Source: a virus. From it: a stretch of 26,093 nucleotides of DNA. Numbering within the stretch: position 1 is the stretch's first letter; the number at the start of each line of letters is the position of its first letter. The stretch lies in IMG/VR virus record IMGVR_UViG_3300030116_001440, positions 1-26,093 of that record, one strand, 5' to 3'. This document shows positions 3,812 to 11,099 of the stretch, in pieces. Made by a program: the position numbers and the translations under genes. The notes below the pieces were generated by a model. It saw nothing but the letters and a program-made list of their open reading frames with translations, was not told where the DNA came from and made no database searches.

Positions 3812-4011
3812 TATCCCACGGGAACGCTAAACTTACCTTTAAACAATTCGCACGCAAGCACCTCGTACGCTACCTAGAACAGCTGTTCGATAACCCAAGC
3901 AAGCACATACCCGACTTTGACGACTTAACACACCGCCAACAAGAAGAGGTATTACGCCACATAAGTTTATTTGAAGATAGAATCAAAAAAATAATCGGAG
4001 AAAAGATATGA
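3808..4011 (+). CDS. Hypothetical protein (67 aa)
   Basis: A 67-residue protein starting MISHGNAKLTFKQFARKHLV, with two predicted helices rich in charged residues (FARKHLVRYLEQLF and HRQQEEVLRHISLFEDRIKKI) and a DDLTHRQQEEV turn between. No family recognised. It is bounded by four-base ATGA overlaps on both sides, next to two tiny membrane-protein frames downstream. Confidence 0.65.
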   Translation: MISHGNAKLTFKQFARKHLVRYLEQLFDNPSKHIPDFDDLTHRQQEEVLRHISLFEDRIKKIIGEKI

Positions 4012-4109
4012 AGAAAGATAAAATTAAAACCGCATTTACAATATATTCAATAATCATATTAATTTGTTGTATCGGTATCTGGACGATGCTTATTACCTGT
4101 AAGTTTTAA
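4008..4109 (+). CDS. Tiny single-span membrane protein (33 aa)
   Basis: The frame ATG 4008 to TAA 4109 encodes 33 residues: a basic start (MKKDKIK) then a hydrophobic span (FTIYSIIILICCIGIWTMLI). There is a GGAG site at 3997-4000 and an ATGA overlap with the upstream gene. The positive-then-hydrophobic layout suggests an inner-membrane peptide with N-terminus inside. Function unknown. Confidence 0.55.
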   Translation: MKKDKIKTAFTIYSIIILICCIGIWTMLITCKF

Positions 4110-4110
4110 A

Positions 4111-4200
4111 ATGATAGATACTATTTTATTAATCACCGCAACCCTATTACTAATTTCTATCGTTTTTTTAAACGATGATGACAACGGCACGGGATTTTAA
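4111..4200 (+). CDS. Tiny membrane peptide (29 aa)
   Basis: The frame ATG 4111 to TAA 4200 encodes 29 residues: hydrophobic MIDTILLITATLLLISIVFL then an acidic tail NDDDNGTGF. It starts one base after the previous stop. With the preceding gene it forms two adjacent membrane peptides, one with a basic head and one with an acidic tail. Support is layout and composition only. Confidence 0.5.
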   Translation: MIDTILLITATLLLISIVFLNDDDNGTGF

Positions 4201-4215
4201 GATAAATTAAAAGGT

Positions 4216-4401
4216 ATGGACAACATACCTAAACATAACTTCTCATGTTCGTACGATGAATACCCAATCGATCAGGACATTCTAAAACAAGCCGAGAGTT
4301 ATAACTTTAAGTATCATTCGCACGGGAAAGTTCCTCAACCAACAACTTACCTAACCCCACAAACAATAAATGTTTCCGAACCCCAGGCTTTGCAGTTTTA
4401 A
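4216..4401 (+). CDS. Doubtful last gene of the plus-strand block (61 aa)
   Basis: An open frame starting MDNIPKHNFSCSYDEYPIDQ. The nearest purine run (AAAAGG, 4209-4214) is only one base from the ATG, too close for a normal ribosome site. Its last 95 bases overlap the convergent winged-helix gene on the other strand. The first half looks protein-like, the part inside the overlap is low in complexity. It could be a real gene with a tail-to-tail overlap, or only its first half may be meaningful. Confidence 0.35.
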   Translation: MDNIPKHNFSCSYDEYPIDQDILKQAESYNFKYHSHGKVPQPTTYLTPQTINVSEPQALQF

Positions 4402-4750
4402 GGATTCGTTTCTCACCTTCGACTGCAATCCATAAAATATCAGCACGCACGAGTTCGCTCACGCATCGCCCTACTGTTTTACTTGATAGGCCTGTCATCT
4501 TTGCATAATAACTATACGCATCATGCGAACTAAACGTTTCAACTCTAAACCTTTCACAGATCGCCCAGAGCGTTAGCTTGCACGCAGGCGAGAGCGTACG
4601 ATCTCCCGCACGGGATCTAAACCACTTCCACACGCACGCACGCATTTTGCTAAAACTTTTAAACTTAGCACGCACGGATGCACGCACGCATCCGCTCTTG
4701 CTTTCATGCTTTGGGATTCCATTTTCGATCCACCAATACTCTTCTAACAT
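4307..4750 (-). CDS. Winged-helix DNA-binding protein, candidate replication initiator
   Basis: A 147-residue basic protein. Residues about 53-110 match the general pattern of HTH_36/phage-O-type winged helices: LSPACKLTLWAICERF, a linker, then YYAKMTGLSSKTVGRCVSELVRADIL, where the recognition helix is SSKTVGRCVSEL. An Arg/Cys-rich N-terminal region (about 20-47) comes from GCACGCACG tandem DNA repeats inside the gene. The gene lies directly downstream of three 22-bp iterons and a strong hairpin, with no other gene between. Lambda O and plasmid Rep proteins show this combination of a winged-helix initiator with repeats in or next to its gene, so initiator is the favoured reading; a transcriptional regulator is the alternative. 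It looks richer in GC than its neighbours, hinting at acquisition from elsewhere. No clear ribosome site is seen. Confidence 0.7.
   Translation of the reverse strand: MLEEYWWIENGIPKHESKSGCVRASVRAKFKSFSKMRACVWKWFRSRAGDRTLSPACKLTLWAICERFRVETFSSHDAYSYYAKMTGLSSKTVGRCVSELVRADILWIAVEGEKRILKTAKPGVRKHLLFVGLGKLLVEELSRANDT
4443..4693 (-). repeat. Cluster of GCACGCACG-type repeats inside the winged-helix gene
   Basis: GCACGCAC or close variants occur at 4443-4450, 4580-4587, 4631-4644, 4668-4676 and 4680-4690, with shorter CGCAC pieces between. The stretch 4675-4694 also forms a 7-bp stem (CGGATGC/GCATCCG) with a 6-base loop. Similar GTGCGTGCG runs occur in the terminase-like gene at 27-39 and singly near 8377. 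They are concentrated here far beyond the rest of this AT-rich window. Confidence 0.6.
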
Positions 4751-4760
4751 CTTGCTAATT

Positions 4761-4791
4761 TAAGGGTAAGGGCGCAAGCCCTTCACCCTTA
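4761..4791. promoter_or_regulatory. Strong hairpin in the leader of the winged-helix gene
   Basis: AAGGGTAAGGGC pairs with GCCCTTCACCCTT around a GCAA loop, giving a 12-bp stem with one bulged base. It sits 11 bases before the winged-helix start on the minus strand and 24 bases from the iterons. Neither side has a T-run, so it is not a good intrinsic terminator. It could control translation of the gene or be a structural part of an origin. Confidence 0.55.
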
Positions 4792-4814
4792 TTTGTATAT
4801 GTAATGGATATATA

Positions 4815-4872
4815 GGACATCTACGGTAGTTAAACAGGACATTTACGGTAGTTCATAGGGACATCTACGGTA
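4815..4872. repeat. Three iterons with exact 22-bp spacing, candidate origin or operator
   Basis: GGACATCTACGGTAGTT (4815-4831), GGACATTTACGGTAGTT (4837-4853) and GGACATCTACGGTA (4859-4872) start exactly 22 bp apart, two helical turns, so a protein would meet each on the same face. Each contains an odd palindrome CTACGGTAG or a variant. They lie in the 163-base gene-free stretch 4751-4913 between the winged-helix gene and the next minus-strand gene. This is the layout of iteron origins and their autoregulated initiator promoters; the function is inferred. Confidence 0.7.
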
Positions 4873-4913
4873 CATCTCAAGGCGGTAATGTAGCCAGAAA
4901 TTGAAAACATCAT

Positions 4914-5060
4914 CTATTTTTTAGGGGGTAGATTTGATGTTTTCTTTTGTGTAGAGGATATTTTTCCGACTACATTACCTTTTCTTTTACCAAAGATTTT
5001 ATCGAAGTTAGTATCAAACTTAGACTTATCAAAGGGACGAGGTTTTGAGCCTTTACTCAT
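4914..5060 (-). CDS. Small conserved phage protein, MSKGSKPRPF type (48 aa)
   Basis: The frame ATG 5060 to TAG 4914 encodes 48 residues. The pattern MSKGSKPRPFD...FDTNFDKIFGKRK resembles a very short hypothetical protein that I recall from many marine and enteric phages (MSKGSxxRP...FxxNxDxIFGKK); no function is known. The C-terminus is Lys/Pro-rich. It overlaps the upstream gene by eight bases (ATGAGTAA). It is the last gene of the leftward operon before the iteron region. Confidence 0.65.
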   Translation of the reverse strand: MSKGSKPRPFDKSKFDTNFDKIFGKRKGNVVGKISSTQKKTSNLPPKK

Positions 5061-5229
5061 CTTCAAACTCCCTTCCCCAATGGATTTGTTGGATCAGCTT
5101 TTCAATAGAATTAATCTTCCTTTGATCGTCCCTAGTGGGCTTTTGTTTGTTAACCAATGGTTTACCAAACTCTGCCAACGCATCAACTAAAAGCTGTCGT
5201 TCTTGTTTATCTGCGTATATCTTTAACAT
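5053..5229 (-). CDS. Small hypothetical protein (58 aa)
   Basis: The frame ATG 5229 to TAA 5053 encodes 58 residues starting MLKIYADKQERQLLVDALAE. It is helical and charged and ends IEKLIQQIHWGREFEDE. A good AAGGAG ribosome site (5241-5246) overlaps the end of the PAPS-reductase-like gene. Family not recognised with confidence. Confidence 0.65.
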   Translation of the reverse strand: MLKIYADKQERQLLVDALAEFGKPLVNKQKPTRDDQRKINSIEKLIQQIHWGREFEDE

Positions 5230-5244
5230 GGTTATTTTTTCTCC

Positions 5245-6111
5245 TTAATCATGACAAAAACAATCCATACTGTCGTCGTCAAATTTAAACTCTTGCTGAA
5301 CATCAACCAAAGTAATCATTTCTCTATAACTTGGCCTATCCTTCCTAAATCTGTTATTAAATTTTTCTTCAGTTTCCGCCCACCAAATAGCCTTGGATTT
5401 ATCTTCCTTTATTATTTGACTTATTTTCTTATGGCTTTTAAGGAAACATAGATCACAATTACCGTGAGGTGTTTCGTTATCTATTATTGGTAAATTAAGA
5501 TCAAAGTTTTGTTTTTTCCAAAAATCATTAACATCTTCTTTAGTGACTTTTGCATCATAAAGCGGTGTTAAATTAAATTTCTTTTGTGTGTTTTTTGCTT
5601 TCTGTCTTGCTACCCTTCTTGGCTCATCATATCTAAGACCAAGCGCAATATCATAAATACTTATACCTTGTTGTTTCATGTACTCACTAATTCTTACAAT
5701 TTTTAATTTATCAGTACAAAATCTAGCAACGGGATTTGGTAATAGTGCCTGATCTTTTTCATACTTTCCTGGAGTATTTATTTCTGCTCTGGCTTTAAAA
5801 TATTCAATCATTTTGGTAAACGGCTCACCGTTTCTGCTTGCTGTTTGATAATCAACTATCTTTGTCCCTTGCTTATCCCCACCGTCCCAATCAAACTCCA
5901 ACCAAACAATATTTACACCCCACTTTTCTTGGCAATCTCTAACAAAATCTAATGTTTCTGGACATTCTTTGCCTGTGTTTGCAAAGATTACATGAATGTC
6001 TTTTGGTAGCTGTCCGTTATATGCTTGTAAAATATGAAATAGCATAAAGCCAGATGTTCTGCCACCGCTAAATGTAATGACTGCTGGTGTTGGAATCTTA
6101 TATGGATTCAT
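5245..6111 (-). CDS. PAPS reductase-like PP-loop enzyme with paired cysteines
   Basis: A 288-residue protein of the PAPS reductase/ATP-pyrophosphatase superfamily. The PP-loop SGGRTS is at residues 15-20, followed by VIFANTGKECPETLDFV (41-57), FCTDKLKI (131-138) and LGLRYDEPRRVAR (158-170), in the family order. It has C132, C219-x2-C222 and a C-terminal C284-x-C286-H, possibly ligands of an Fe-S cluster or zinc; this resembles DndC-type enzymes as much as assimilatory PAPS reductases. True PAPS reductases carry a C-terminal ECGLH-type motif, not seen here. Superfamily enzymes activate a substrate by adenylation, usually for sulfur transfer. Context (methyltransferase upstream, no sulfate-assimilation gene) favours a nucleic-acid or nucleotide modification role. 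It is coupled (ATGA) to a 52-residue gene. Confidence 0.85.
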   Translation of the reverse strand: MNPYKIPTPAVITFSGGRTSGFMLFHILQAYNGQLPKDIHVIFANTGKECPETLDFVRDCQEKWGVNIVWLEFDWDGGDKQGTKIVDYQTASRNGEPFTKMIEYFKARAEINTPGKYEKDQALLPNPVARFCTDKLKIVRISEYMKQQGISIYDIALGLRYDEPRRVARQKAKNTQKKFNLTPLYDAKVTKEDVNDFWKKQNFDLNLPIIDNETPHGNCDLCFLKSHKKISQIIKEDKSKAIWWAETEEKFNNRFRKDRPSYREMITLVDVQQEFKFDDDSMDCFCHD

Positions 6112-6266
6112 TTGTCCTTTTCCTTCGGTGGATTAATCATTTCAATATGAAATTTGTTTTCCTTCATGGCCTTCTGGATAACTCTAAGCTGCTCATCAAA
6201 GTTCTCACTCATAATATCTTTATCGGTATAGACCACTAACTTTAATATTTGTTTATGTTTCATCAT
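6108..6266 (-). CDS. Small hypothetical protein (52 aa)
   Basis: The frame ATG 6266 (second ATG at 6263) to TGA 6108 encodes 52 residues starting MMKHKQILKLVVYTDKDIMS, charged, ending NPPKEKDK. It overlaps the PP-loop gene by four bases and begins at the stop of a 16-residue frame, so it is probably translated by coupling. No family recognised. Confidence 0.55.
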   Translation of the reverse strand: MMKHKQILKLVVYTDKDIMSENFDEQLRVIQKAMKENKFHIEMINPPKEKDK

Positions 6267-6313
6267 TTTGGTAATTGTTCTGGATCAAACCAGCCACATG
6301 GATAATTAATCAT
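6263..6313 (-). CDS. Possible 16-residue micro-protein MINYPCGWFDPEQLPK
   Basis: A tiny frame links the end of the methyltransferase to the 52-residue gene: GGGAG lies 8 bases before ATG 6313 (an ATG at 6319 is two bases after it), and its TGA overlaps the next ATG. The composition (CGWFDPEQLP) looks protein-like, but the frame is too short for confidence and may only serve to couple translation. Confidence 0.3.
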   Translation of the reverse strand: MINYPCGWFDPEQLPK

Positions 6314-7277
6314 TTTCATTTCTCCCTGTTATTATTTCTGTATTTGCCATGATACCTAAATCTTTATGTATTCTTTGTTTAGCTATCTCAATGTAATCTG
6401 GATTCAACTCACACATAACTGCATTTCTATTATGTTTGTTTGCGACTATACCTGTGGTTGCAGATCCGCCAAAAGGATCAAGCACAACACCGCCTTCTGG
6501 ACAACCCGCTAATACACATGGCTCAATTAAATCTGGTGGAAAGGTAGCAAAATGAGCTCCTTTAAATGGTTTTGTTGTGACCGTCCAAACACTTCTTTTG
6601 TTTCTTTTCTCTTGCGGTTTCATACCTTTAAAACCATGTCTTACCCTAAACATAGGATCATCTTCCACGGATTTACCAATAGTTTTTATGCTGTTTGGAA
6701 CTCCCCTTTCTCCTTTTGAATTTACCGTGACTGAATCTTCTTTAATTGCCTCGTTATCAAAATAATACTTTACATTTTTACTGAGCAAGAAAATATACTC
6801 ATGGGCTTTAGTGCAACGATCTTTGACACTCTCTGGCATAGGATTAGGTTTATGCCAAATAATATCTTGTCTTAGATACCACCCGTCCTCTTGTAGAGCA
6901 AAGGCTACTCGCCACGGGATACCAATTAAATCTTTGGGTTTTATATTCTTGCTAGGCTTTGGTCTTGTCACTCCATAATCTTTATCGCCACGCAATGATT
7001 GATTTGTTGTCGTTGTCCTTCCACCGCTTGAATAACTATCACCAAGATTTAACCAAACCGTACCGTCATCTTTTAGTATTCTTCTTATTTCTCTAAAAAC
7101 CTTGACTAAGTTATGAGTAAAATCTTCTGGTGTATCTTCTAAGCCTAACTGTTTATCTTCGTCATTGTAGTTTCTAAGGCCATAATAAGGTGGAGAAGTA
7201 ATGCAAGTGTTAATTGATTGATCTTCTAACATCTTCAATGTTTCTAAACAATCGCCTTGATAAATCTTAATATCCAT
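6306..7277 (-). CDS. DNA methyltransferase, beta class (N6-adenine or N4-cytosine)
   Basis: I chose ATG 7277, which overlaps the upstream stop by one base, over a GTG at 7289; this gives 323 residues. The catalytic motif IV is TSPPY (27-31), followed by YYGLRNY, and the AdoMet-binding motif I is DPFGGSATTG at 267-276, so the order IV to I marks the beta class. SPPY occurs in N4-cytosine and some N6-adenine enzymes. NLGDSY (77-82) and ELNPDYIEIAKQRI (289-302) are family-typical. No restriction endonuclease lies next to it, so it is an orphan phage methyltransferase, probably protecting phage DNA from host restriction or adjusting packaging or replication. Target sequence cannot be read from the protein. 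Confidence 0.92.
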   Translation of the reverse strand: MDIKIYQGDCLETLKMLEDQSINTCITSPPYYGLRNYNDEDKQLGLEDTPEDFTHNLVKVFREIRRILKDDGTVWLNLGDSYSSGGRTTTTNQSLRGDKDYGVTRPKPSKNIKPKDLIGIPWRVAFALQEDGWYLRQDIIWHKPNPMPESVKDRCTKAHEYIFLLSKNVKYYFDNEAIKEDSVTVNSKGERGVPNSIKTIGKSVEDDPMFRVRHGFKGMKPQEKRNKRSVWTVTTKPFKGAHFATFPPDLIEPCVLAGCPEGGVVLDPFGGSATTGIVANKHNRNAVMCELNPDYIEIAKQRIHKDLGIMANTEIITGRNEND

Positions 7278-9112
7278 CAATAATCCCACTCAATATCTTT
7301 GTTATGAAATACCTCTAACACGGCATTTCTCCTTATCAATGTCATTGGCGACATATCGACTTCGCTAGAGTTAGACTTAACCACTCCCGCATTGACAACC
7401 CTAGTTCTATCAAAATCTAAACCTTCTTCCGCACAGATGTTCTCTACGGTGTTTTCATCTGCTAAACCTATGGCTATCGCCAAACGCATACCGTCAACCA
7501 ATGAGCTTGATCCACGAATACTTGCTCTTAAATTCATAATATCTTCTTGCATATTCAAGGCAGTTTTAGCCATGTGATGCAAAGATAAAACGCTTGCGTT
7601 AAATTTAGATGCAATGCTTGAACAAAACTGACAATACAACTGAGCAGCCTCTTGGCTTGTAGTTATCGGTGCGGCCACGAATGATTGCACAGGATCAATC
7701 ACAACCAAAGATAAATCCTTAATAGTAGAGATTTCATCAATCAATTCATGTGCTTCAGGTGTTAAATCTAAACCTCTGCTGTCATCTTTAAGTAAGATTA
7801 AAGGCTTTTCTGCATCTGGAACGGTATAAACATAAGTATCGTATTCAGTTTCATATCGCTTTTCATTGGGATCAAGAGCCTTAATCCTTCTAAAGACTTC
7901 GTTTCTATCGTCCTCTGCACATAAAACTAATGTATTGCCAGGACTTTTTATTGGCTTATCCAACCAAGTGCCATGACCTTGACTGACCTTCATTGCCAAA
8001 TCTAACGCCAACATACTCTTACCAATACCACCAATGCTTGCAAGTATGCTTGGCTTGGATCGTTCTAATAAACCTTCAACCAACCAAGACTTTGGCGGTG
8101 GATCACCTACAAACTGTCTGATAGAGAAGTTTCTGATACCAATACCAAGATTACTAATCTCTAACTTAACTGCATCTAAACCTTGTTCTTGTGCTAGATC
8201 ATTAAAATCACCTTCGATAGACGGTATCCTAATAAAACAATTAAAGAATCTGGAACAGATATCCTCTGCCTTTTTTCTACCTAAATTAGTTTTATCGTTA
8301 TCAAATGCTAAATAAATTCTTGCATCAGTCTTATCTCTTAACTTCTTGACCGCATCATAACCAAAGTTAGCTGAAAACACGCACGCAACGGGCAACCCTG
8401 TCGCCTCATAAACGCTTGCACCTGTCGCCATACCTTCGACCACAACCAACGAATCAATCTTCTCTAATGATTTAAAGTCTGTACCGATTAAAAATAGATT
8501 ACCTTTAACTTCTCCAGCAGAAACAAAACGCTTTTGACCGTCCTCTTGTATGTATTGCAACGACCTAAGGTCGCCCTGTGTGTTGTAAATAGGAACAACT
8601 AATGCTTTATTGTGTAGCTTTAAAGAATAACTTTTGATCTGTTTAGATTCCAGATAAGGATGCTTGATAACCTCTGAATAAGATTGAAACCTTTGCTCAC
8701 AATCTTTTGCAACTTCCTTATATCTGGTTAGTTTTTCTTGCCTTGCCTCTTCTTGGGCTTGCTTTATTTTGGCTTGTAAATCCTGTCTTTGATCTGGTGT
8801 AAGTTTGTTGACCGCAGCTGAACTCCATTTAAACTCCGTCCCCGTTCTCCAATTTCCGTAATTTGCGAATATGTGATTATCGACAACATTAATAACATAC
8901 CAACCCGATTTTTCATTGCCTTTGTCTGGTCTAACTCCTGAAGTAGCTAAAACGGAAACTCGAACTAAGTCCCCTGTTGTGTTTAAGAAACCGACATTTA
9001 AACCTATCGCTTGCATTTCTGCAATAAGGTCTTGTTCATTTCCTCTGTTTTTTTCTAAATAATTATTGTCTTTGACTAATCCGTAAAGTTTTTTATATTT
9101 CTTGAGATCCAT
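7277..9112 (-). CDS. Primase-helicase with TOPRIM and RecA-like (AAA_25) domains
   Basis: A 611-residue replication protein. The N-terminal about 160 residues are partly coiled coil (QAKIKQAQEEARQEK). A TOPRIM domain at about 215-300 has VVVEG (223-227) and DND (271-273), the metal-binding glutamate and aspartates for primer synthesis. A RecA-like helicase/ATPase at about 330-560 has Walker A GGIGKS (361-366), the catalytic-type CAEDD (398-402), Walker B LVVIDP (469-474) and HHMAK (512-516). It lacks the N-terminal zinc finger of T7 gp4; a separate Cys-rich gene immediately upstream overlaps it by 20 bases and may supply one. It should unwind and prime the fork in place of DnaB/DnaG. No DNA polymerase is visible nearby. 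Confidence 0.9.
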   Translation of the reverse strand: MDLKKYKKLYGLVKDNNYLEKNRGNEQDLIAEMQAIGLNVGFLNTTGDLVRVSVLATSGVRPDKGNEKSGWYVINVVDNHIFANYGNWRTGTEFKWSSAAVNKLTPDQRQDLQAKIKQAQEEARQEKLTRYKEVAKDCEQRFQSYSEVIKHPYLESKQIKSYSLKLHNKALVVPIYNTQGDLRSLQYIQEDGQKRFVSAGEVKGNLFLIGTDFKSLEKIDSLVVVEGMATGASVYEATGLPVACVFSANFGYDAVKKLRDKTDARIYLAFDNDKTNLGRKKAEDICSRFFNCFIRIPSIEGDFNDLAQEQGLDAVKLEISNLGIGIRNFSIRQFVGDPPPKSWLVEGLLERSKPSILASIGGIGKSMLALDLAMKVSQGHGTWLDKPIKSPGNTLVLCAEDDRNEVFRRIKALDPNEKRYETEYDTYVYTVPDAEKPLILLKDDSRGLDLTPEAHELIDEISTIKDLSLVVIDPVQSFVAAPITTSQEAAQLYCQFCSSIASKFNASVLSLHHMAKTALNMQEDIMNLRASIRGSSSLVDGMRLAIAIGLADENTVENICAEEGLDFDRTRVVNAGVVKSNSSEVDMSPMTLIRRNAVLEVFHNKDIEWDY

Positions 9113-9467
9113 CTACCCCGTTCCTTGCTTGCTCATTTGCATAATTAAGATACTCACGAATTATCTTATTAAAAAAATTCATGCGATCTTCCTCTGTCCA
9201 ATCACGCAACGCCCAGCTTTTATTTTCTTTGGATATTTTTATATACCTATCCCTTGATTGTGCTTTTGCATACGCAACACCTTTCTCAGAAACTTGAGCA
9301 ATATTTTTTAATTTATTACCTTTGACTATTTCTTTTTGATGTTCCACGCAACAAGCTCCGTACCATTTATCCTCAAACTTTGTAAGTAGGCCGCCTACGG
9401 GGTTAAAACAATAACCACATAGGGAAGGCCTATCTACACTTAAAAAATTAAAATGGGATGTTTTCAT
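9093..9467 (-). CDS. Cys/His-rich protein, possible detached zinc domain of the primase
   Basis: A 124-residue protein. Residues C17-x2-C20 (SLCGYCF) and C39, C40 with H43 (ACCVEHQ) form a plausible treble-clef or zinc-finger site in the N-terminal half; the C-terminal half is helical and charged (DWTEEDRMNFFNKIIREYL). It overlaps the primase-helicase by 20 bases and the SSB-like gene by 20 bases, so the three are co-translated. T7-type primases need an N-terminal zinc domain to recognise primer-start sites, so a detached zinc partner is an attractive but unproven role; another nucleic-acid-binding function is equally possible. Confidence 0.7.
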   Translation of the reverse strand: MKTSHFNFLSVDRPSLCGYCFNPVGGLLTKFEDKWYGACCVEHQKEIVKGNKLKNIAQVSEKGVAYAKAQSRDRYIKISKENKSWALRDWTEEDRMNFFNKIIREYLNYANEQARNGVDGSQEI

Positions 9468-9909
9468 CGCCTGATTCTTTAGTTTCAGGTTCAGATTTCT
9501 TTTCCGATTTTACAGGCTTAGATTTAGGTTCTAGCCAACCTTTACCTTTACCGTCATCAATAGCTGGATATCCTTTGTCATCAATAATAACATTGGCCCT
9601 TACTTTTGATCCGACTAGGTCGCTACTGTCATCGGGAAAACCATCTGGAAACCCACAAACTTTTGCAAGTTTGTCCAGCGATTGTAAACCGATTTCAACA
9701 GCTTGTTCACTCGTATCATGCTCGCAAGTAAAAGAATGACCGACCAAAAAGTTAGGCTTGTCAACAACTCTAAAGTAAACCTTTAAAGCAACCCAACCAT
9801 TTTTACCTTTTATCTCTTCATCCTGTGCATACTCAAAGTCATACACACCTGGCTCAAGAGTTTCAAGGGCTGTAGCATCCCTTTGTTGTTTATATTTACT
9901 TAATTCCAT
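9448..9909 (-). CDS. DUF669 protein, SSB-like with canonical acidic tail
   Basis: A 153-residue protein of the DUF669 type: LEPGVYDFEYAQDEEIKGKN then a W/F-rich core and a final Lys/Glu-rich linker. It ends GDENIPF, matching the C-terminal peptide of bacterial SSB (DDDIPF), which binds host SSB partners. The fold is expected to be an OB-type single-strand DNA binder, and the position between primase-helicase and Sak4-like ATPase supports this. A strong ribosome site (AGGAG) precedes ATG 9909. Confidence 0.85.
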   Translation of the reverse strand: MELSKYKQQRDATALETLEPGVYDFEYAQDEEIKGKNGWVALKVYFRVVDKPNFLVGHSFTCEHDTSEQAVEIGLQSLDKLAKVCGFPDGFPDDSSDLVGSKVRANVIIDDKGYPAIDDGKGKGWLEPKSKPVKSEKKSEPETKESGDENIPF

Positions 9910-9917
9910 TTTTTCTC

Positions 9918-10118
9918 CTATCCTGGATCATAACTGTGGTAATCATTAAGGTAGTTAATGAGATCCTTGCAGTCTTGGTTAATACTAATGAGATGATGAA
10001 GGCCGTCTATAGGTAGATCATTATTATCAGGATTTATAGTGTCTATAAGTGTGGATAATAATACATCTATCGTTGTCAAAGCACCTTTGCTTCTAGTGAC
10101 ATCATCAACTCTACTCAT
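9918..10118 (-). CDS. Hypothetical small acidic protein (66 aa)
   Basis: A 66-residue helical acidic protein starting MSRVDDVTRSKGALTTIDVL and ending YLNDYHSYDPG. It overlaps the ATPase gene by eight bases and precedes the SSB-like gene by eight. No family recognised; a small accessory factor of the recombination module is a guess from position. Confidence 0.7.
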   Translation of the reverse strand: MSRVDDVTRSKGALTTIDVLLSTLIDTINPDNNDLPIDGLHHLISINQDCKDLINYLNDYHSYDPG

Positions 10119-10854
10119 CTTTACCGCCTATCATGGCTGATCGAATCTCTTTCCAATCAAACGGTAAAGTATCTGGAAGTGCATATCTATTCTTCGCTAG
10201 AAACGCAGGTTTCTCACGACAATAGGCTATAACATCTCCAGCTACGGCTTTTGTTGTCATCGTGCCACCTTTACCTTGGACTTTAACAGTACCAAGTTTA
10301 TAGTTAGCAAAGAAACAACAATCGCTGTTCTCTAAAACTAAATCCGCAGCTTTACGGTGCAGTTTTAATTCATGTCTATCGTATGGCTCAATCTCAGGCG
10401 ATTCAAACCTTTTGATTTGATTGTGGCCTATCTGCAAAGTAATCATGCCTTTATCCTCTCTTAGAGTGTTAAGCAAATCTAAATATTGTCGCCAATACTT
10501 CAATACTTCTACATAACCTTTACCATAACCAGGTTGCTCAATGGATCGCCAGCCATTATCTTGACAGGCTTTATCCCATATTAATGGTTCTAACCAATCA
10601 AGTGAATCGACTACAACAGTTTTGTAATCGTGATCTTCCTCTATCAAATCTTTGAGATAACCCATAGCATCTTCAAAAGATTTACATAAAGGAAACTGTG
10701 GTGCTTCAATCGTACCCATACCATCTTCTGTAAGTATAAAGATAGGTTTTGGCATCGTTGATCCAAAGGTTGTTTTACCAATACCAGCACCACCATAGAC
10801 AACAAGTCTTGGCGGTTTCTGTTTTGATTTAGTTCTAATATCAGCTAGGCTCAT
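10111..10854 (-). CDS. Sak4-like RecA-fold ATPase (AAA_24)
   Basis: A 247-residue P-loop ATPase: Walker A GGAGIGKTT (21-29), Walker B VVVDSLD (80-86), and a following QIGHNQIK segment (about 142-149). Phage Sak4-type proteins with this layout are RecA-like cores that assist single-strand annealing and replication restart, and they are regularly found next to DUF669 and DUF2800 genes, as here. The start at 10854 overlaps the upstream gene by four bases (ATGA). Name from family memory; activity inferred. Confidence 0.88.
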   Translation of the reverse strand: MSLADIRTKSKQKPPRLVVYGGAGIGKTTFGSTMPKPIFILTEDGMGTIEAPQFPLCKSFEDAMGYLKDLIEEDHDYKTVVVDSLDWLEPLIWDKACQDNGWRSIEQPGYGKGYVEVLKYWRQYLDLLNTLREDKGMITLQIGHNQIKRFESPEIEPYDRHELKLHRKAADLVLENSDCCFFANYKLGTVKVQGKGGTMTTKAVAGDVIAYCREKPAFLAKNRYALPDTLPFDWKEIRSAMIGGKDE

Positions 10855-11099
10855 TTGACCACCTCAACCTTTTTATCATCACCTTCTACAGCTTCTTTAA
10901 GTAGATCGCTGTAATGTTTTGCAAGAATGTCTAGCTTTTCAACCTCAAAGTTTGCATTGCTAACAATCTCATTTTTTTGTCTATTGACCAACATAACCTT
11001 GTTGTAAATAAGTTTATGTTCATCAGACAAATCATCTACCTTGTACTCTTTACCATCATCGGAAAAGCTAAAGGTAAGTTCTTCATTATTATCGGACAT
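10851..11099 (-). CDS. Small acidic coiled-coil protein, DUF6447-like (82 aa)
   Basis: An 82-residue protein starting MSDNNEELTFSFSDDGKEYK. The pattern DGKEYKVDDLSDEHK...LVNRQKNEI...HYSDLLKEA matches the DUF6447-type layout (short beta-hairpin, then a helix heptad run). It lies between the nuclease and the ATPase with one-base and four-base overlaps, so it is part of the recombination module. Function unknown. Confidence 0.75.
   Translation of the reverse strand: MSDNNEELTFSFSDDGKEYKVDDLSDEHKLIYNKVMLVNRQKNEIVSNANFEVEKLDILAKHYSDLLKEAVEGDDKKVEVVK

Follow-up and report, generated by a model that had tools for sequence, protein, structure and literature searches.

A NinC-like PP-loop protein of a marine phage is a predicted sulfurtransferase encoded separately from a neighboring DNA methyltransferase

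We analyzed the entire 26,093-base IMG/VR record of a marine phage (hereafter, the window). In this phage, a DNA methyltransferase gene and a gene encoding a PP-loop protein occupy a slot shared with near-identical phages, each as an insertion the size of one gene that is gained, lost, or replaced independently of the other. By its sequence, the PP-loop protein is a new member of the known NinC-like family. We consider it about an even bet (probability of roughly 0.5) that this protein is a solo, IscS-fed, ATP-using sulfurtransferase that acts on nucleic acid, with phage DNA the most likely target, and serves as a defense-related accessory.

The genes of interest all lie on the minus strand. 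The PP-loop gene (positions 5245–6111, 288 aa) is preceded by a 52-aa gene (6108–6266), a 16-codon frame with the sequence MINYPCGWFDPEQLPK and a ribosome-binding-like GGGAGA (6263–6313), and a gene encoding a β-class N6/N4 DNA methyltransferase of 323 aa (6306–7277). The slot is bordered upstream by the gene for a 611-aa primase-helicase with Toprim and AAA_25 domains (7277–9112; PF13481, E = 4.4e-33; PF13362, E = 2.3e-10) and downstream by a 58-aa gene (5053–5229). A check of ORFs and motifs across the window recovered every feature of the first-pass annotation where it had been placed. That annotation described the methyltransferase, the 16-residue frame, the 52-residue gene, and the PP-loop enzyme as joined by ATGA-type overlaps, and the interlocking starts and stops were all confirmed. 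The helicase and methyltransferase genes meet at TGATG, the methyltransferase gene and the 16-codon frame at ATGATTAA, and both the 16-codon/52-aa and the 52-aa/PP-loop junctions read ATGA. A scan of the window for promoters and terminators returned fewer sites than expected from shuffled sequence, and no tRNA genes were found. The translational coupling describes the window genome alone; in relatives, the genes prove separable.

Two sister phages, L008 and L009, are ~93–97% identical to the window over most of both flanks. In L009, positions 7281–10888 of the window are matched at 93.2% and positions 4000–5241 at 97.4%, and the helicase, 52-aa, and 58-aa proteins are 99%, 100%, and 98% identical, respectively. 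Both phages lack the methyltransferase in the slot and carry a PP-loop allele that is 50% identical to that of the window; no methyltransferase homolog was found in the 26,867-base record of L009. Phages L411–L413, which were found via the 52-aa gene, are ~94–96% identical to the window beside the slot, and both enzyme genes are absent. In L411, the flanks of which are ~95% identical, the segments at window positions 6314–7280 and 5247–6114 are missing, leaving clean junctions, and the 6314–7280 segment is also missing in L008, L009, L412, and L413. The helicase, 16-codon, 52-aa, 58-aa, and 50-aa frames occur in succession in L411, and the 58-aa gene comes directly after the 52-aa gene in L411–L413. 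The more distant L041 has a methyltransferase (66% identity) and a PP-loop protein (51% identity) in the same slot. The PP-loop protein of the window is itself closest (83–86%) to those of L001–L007, the flanks of which are largely unrelated. Because of these comparisons, we conclude that the two enzyme genes are separate insertions. The single coupled modification operon or system proposed by the first-pass annotation does not hold, since the methyltransferase and PP-loop genes are present or absent separately among near-identical phages. No phage of this lineage with the methyltransferase gene and without the PP-loop gene was seen in this small sample.

The 52-aa and 16-codon frames had also been counted as parts of the operon, yet both persist without either enzyme gene and belong to the conserved backbone of the phage lineage, the 16-codon frame lying outside the insert. 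In L008, L009, and L411–L413, this frame retains a GGGAGA of its own and reads MVNYPCGWFDPEQLPK(K), with in-frame length changes of 3 nt. In the lineage, a frame of 16–17 codons, M(I/V)NYPCGWFDPEQLPK(K), is conserved together with a ribosome-binding-like site. Homologs of the 52-aa gene in L414–L426 have no PP-loop gene in the retrieved flank. At the junctions of both insertions (5247–6114 and 6314–7280) lie ribosome-binding-like sequences, GGGAGA/AAGGAGAAA, a pattern suggesting that genes are exchanged one at a time via short ribosome sites that they have in common. Two candidates for a partner of the PP-loop protein were considered and rejected. The product of the 52-aa or 16-codon gene was set aside because both genes persist in L411–L413, where the PP-loop gene is absent, and the small ORFs upstream of the PP-loop gene in relatives were set aside as a single conserved partner family because, by eye, their sequences are unrelated.

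The assignment of the neighboring enzyme as a β-class methyltransferase was borne out. The protein carries TSPPY (residue 27) ahead of DPFGGSATTG (residue 267), which is the β-class motif order (motif IV before motif I), and it matches PF01555 (N6_N4_Mtase) over its length (E = 1.3e-51; 176 bits against a cut-off of 26.7). It also matches PHROG_67 (E = 8.2e-85) and the PADLOC model MTase_II (E = 8.5e-112). N6-adenine is a possible target base, as the nearest solved relative is CcrM (E = 5.6e-20). TSPPY occurs in N4-cytosine enzymes too, so the target is not settled between N6 and N4. In motif order and full-length match, this protein is like the orphan β-class methyltransferases of other phages (PHROG_67, CcrM-like), with no notable difference from them. 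It would be an independent DNA-modification gene that was gained in the same slot as the PP-loop gene; it may serve the same purpose as the PP-loop enzyme while standing outside its mechanism.

We then examined the genomic context of the PP-loop family, a survey of PP-loop and methyltransferase pairs that the first-pass annotation had proposed. We collected 243 phage loci, which form 77 clusters at 75% identity. A DNA methylase of any kind was present in the retrieved flank, ~6 kb and often less, in 16/77 clusters. When only genes of at least 170 aa were counted in a phage set that included the window, the source of the question, methylases made up 7/59 genes within 400 bp of the PP-loop gene vs 13/303 further off (Fisher P = 0.03; within-contig permutation P = 0.015). 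Loci from bacterial genomes (44 clusters) yielded 6/48 near vs 5/168 further off (permutation P = 0.0046), and a Pfam check of the nearest neighbors against a distant control set went in the same direction. The survey thus returned a modest enrichment, confined to a minority of clusters. In the reverse search, a PP-loop gene was present in the retrieved flank of 5/80 relatives of the window methyltransferase. The methylases themselves are of several kinds: N6/N4 enzymes neighbor the PP-loop gene in the window, L041, L045, and L082, C5 enzymes in phage C72C1, L045, and L082, and an MT-A70 enzyme in L038. Other neighbors are often replication or recombination genes, and a tRNA gene was present in the retrieved locus of 5/76 clusters. 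We read the methylase link as co-location of DNA-modification or counter-restriction genes rather than as a fixed enzyme pair.

Several loci showed closer arrangements of the two kinds of gene. In Vibrio phage 41E34.2 (MW824394; L028:3992–5431), a NinC-like PP-loop domain is fused to a C-terminal Dam domain (PF05869, E = 1.8e-38) in a protein of 479 aa. In L014:5153–6514 and L015:7221–8582, a class I methyltransferase domain (PF13489, E = 4.6e-6) lies inside the PP-loop domain, before NSASRDGEPF. The PP-loop gene is located between C5-cytosine and N6/N4 methylase genes in L045:747–4995 and L082:4388–8129. A few lambdoid contigs (L117, L118, L120, and L134) have a Dam-type gene that ends at the start of ninC with a short overlap.

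The PP-loop protein matches PF01507 and aligns over its full length (residues 1–286) with PHROG_424, which carries the label "phosphoadenosine phosphosulfate reductase" (E = 1.7e-52). PHROG_424 includes lambda NinC and matched 396 records in the phage collection; one scan of viral contigs confirmed at least 478 stretches of the family. The conservation of the protein across hundreds of viral contigs is above chance. The residues singled out in the first-pass annotation are all present in the window protein: SGGRTS at position 15, C132, C219-x2-C222, and a C-terminal C-x-C-H (within CFCHD), with no ECGLH. Its cysteines are at positions 50, 60, 132, 219, 222, 284, and 286. An alignment of 91 relatives was used to assess conservation, and 17 residues are invariant in 91/91: S15, G17, S20, E49, C132, K137, G158, R160, D162, E163, R166, W198, N218, C219, C222, K225, and C284. 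These include an ATP-type loop (SxGxxS) and the signature GxRxDExxR. At least two C-terminal cysteines are present in 91/91 relatives, and an ECGLH-type tail in 0/91. Because they are kept throughout the aligned sequences, SGGRTS, C132, C219/C222, and the C-terminal cysteines are features of the family rather than oddities of the window protein.

The likeness to DndC that had been noted in the cysteine pattern was upheld, as a DndC/SspD-like pattern is present. The best-ranked PADLOC model for the protein, one with no curated cut-off, is SspD (E = 5.6e-16, residues 11–250), and the DndC model TIGR03183 scores 18.9 bits, below its cut-off of 290.4. Like SspD and DndC, the window protein would be a PP-loop ATPase with this set of cysteines; unlike them, it has no identified Dnd or Ssp partner genes around it. 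None of the genes identified in the survey was a DndD/DndE- or SspB/SspC-like partner, SspB and SspC having been looked for in the relatives without dedicated models. No cysteine desulfurase was found near the gene in the 243 phage loci or in 80 genome loci.

Lambda NinC is 30.6% identical to the window protein over residues 11–239 (E = 1e-18) and shares with it SGGRTS, FCTD, GxRxDEPxR, GNCxxC, and a C-terminal cysteine pair. It is likewise located among replication and recombination genes. The two differ in the tail, which is SCSESC in NinC and CFCHD in the window protein, and in setting, as ninC lies between ninB and ninD, whereas the slot of the window gene also holds a methylase gene. NinC is dispensable for plaques, and it has no function established so far (PMC10695390).

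A search of PDB sequences with the family profile returned, as its best match, chain C of entry 21fy, PptA (E = 3.9e-6), and hhalign of the family against PptA gave a probability of 96.4 (E = 1.4e-9). A single-sequence search of the PDB returned only chance matches to lectins and phosphatases. PptA is 100% identical to the product of a gene of Vibrio phage vB_VhaP_VH-5. It keeps ACTTQLK, NNCVGCVK, and CSLVC, with cysteines at places equivalent to those of the window family (ACT, NCVGC, and CxxxC), but it is only ~19% identical to the window protein, its PP-loop reads SCGAPS, and no DNA methylase is annotated beside its gene in VH-5. When the E. coli IscS sequence was searched, IscS was also listed in entry 21fy. 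Thus, PptA, a phage protein of the broad family, is solved together with a host-type cysteine desulfurase, which links a related phage protein to such an enzyme. No paper on PptA or entry 21fy was found in the library that we searched. Sulfur uptake from IscS is the favored reading for PptA because SspD, the equivalent protein in the Ssp system, binds its desulfurase SspA (PMC7188994).

We modeled the window protein using AlphaFold 2 and obtained a mean pLDDT of 92.9, with values <50 at residues 276–282, just before the C-terminal cysteine pair. The model matched APS reductase (Z = 13.3, the top match), an ATP sulfurylase subunit (12.8), LarE (~12), GMP synthetase (~12), and NcsA (11.4). These predicted matches are spread over the whole PP-loop superfamily and choose no function.

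PP-loop enzymes adenylate their substrates, and several of them (DndC, TtcA, NcsA, and LarE) then help to add sulfur by means of cysteines or an Fe-S cluster. In the mechanism that we propose, host IscS would pass persulfide sulfur to the PP-loop protein, and the SGGRTS PP-loop would bind ATP and adenylate an oxygen of the nucleic-acid target. An Fe-S site is likely at C132, C219, and C222, and the flexible tail bears the C284/C286 pair, which may act as the sulfur carrier or provide a fourth ligand. The most likely target, phage DNA, would thereby receive a phosphorothioate-like or other sulfur mark for evasion of defense. The DNA context speaks for this reading (the Dam fusion, the inserted methyltransferase domain, the methylase enrichment, and the replication or recombination neighbors), as do allele replacement and presence or absence in near-identical phages. 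Lambda carries NinC, and phosphorothioate is not known from lambda DNA; a constitutive DNA mark is therefore disfavored. Strict DNA phosphorothioation is disfavored for the same reason and because the survey identified no DndD/E or SspB/C partner. The suggestion in the first-pass annotation that the enzyme adds sulfur remains the best reading and is backed by the PptA/IscS entry, but the idea that such a phage enzyme would be new fails, as the family includes lambda NinC and such genes have already been noted in phages.

Four other explanations were weighed against this sulfurtransferase reading. The protein family label would make the gene an auxiliary metabolic cysH, an assimilatory PAPS or APS reductase that boosts host sulfate assimilation, and we regard this as very improbable. 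The PF01507 match, the PHROG label, and the top fold match (Z = 13.3 to 2goy) speak for it, and we take the spacing of C132 to C219/C222 to resemble the APS reductase cluster. However, the fold match is common to PP-loop enzymes generally, and CysH has an ECGLH tail and a CC pair, whereas the window protein lacks both (the CC pair at 132) and its ATP-type PP-loop is intact. CysH-type NCBIfam models gave 21.6, 19.3, and 15.2 bits against cut-offs of 235, 154, and 165, respectively. We rejected CysH identity on these grounds, in agreement with the first-pass annotation; judged on sequence evidence, the PAPS reductase label is wrong for the NinC-like branch. We give equally little credence to a dedicated two-gene system in which the PP-loop enzyme acts on the product of the methylase or vice versa. 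The overlapping genes, the same arrangement in L041, the methylase enrichment, and the fusions are what such a system would have in its favor, but the PP-loop gene occurs without the methyltransferase gene in L008/L009, both are absent in L411–L413, the neighboring methylases are of unrelated kinds, and both survey counts (16/77 and 5/80) are low. The sister genomes and the family survey led us to reject it.

Two further alternatives deserve more weight, although we hold each to be unlikely. The protein could be a non-catalytic counter-defense factor that binds IscS or a DndA-type desulfurase, or mimics DndC/SspD, and so blocks phosphorothioate defense. The presence of PptA and IscS in one PDB entry would fit such a role, as would the presence/absence pattern and allele swapping, which are what an arms race would leave. 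PMC10945359, citing Piel 2022, credits phage PAPS reductase with countering Dnd; among that study's own phages, however, carriage of a PAPS gene was unrelated to infection of a Dnd host, a finding that also counts against the sulfurtransferase reading. Against the inhibitory role, the ATP-site and cysteine residues, which a decoy could do without, are invariant in 91/91 relatives. Slightly less probable is a TtcA/NcsA-like solo thiolase acting on tRNA or on a free nucleotide. TtcA and NcsA, which have an Fe-S site, need no Dnd-like partners, the modeled fold matches NcsA and LarE (Z = 11–12), and no DNA-acting partner was found. Against this, tRNA genes are rare in the retrieved loci, no RNA-binding domain was seen, and DNA enzymes are found among the neighbors and fusions.

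The sister-phage comparison shows single accessory genes entering and leaving a fixed slot in near-identical phages. The broader interest lies in the family, through its abundance and its tie to lambda NinC, and not in the window operon. NinC-like proteins are usually annotated as PAPS reductases and counted as sulfur-metabolism genes, and PMC11437467 calls for study of phage PAPS reductase proteins. We tentatively propose, as a possibility that we hold well short of even odds, that NinC-like proteins are widespread single-gene, IscS-fed phage enzymes that modify phage DNA or other nucleic acid with sulfur, without Dnd or Ssp partners. If so, many phage "cysH" auxiliary metabolic genes would be nucleic-acid modification genes.
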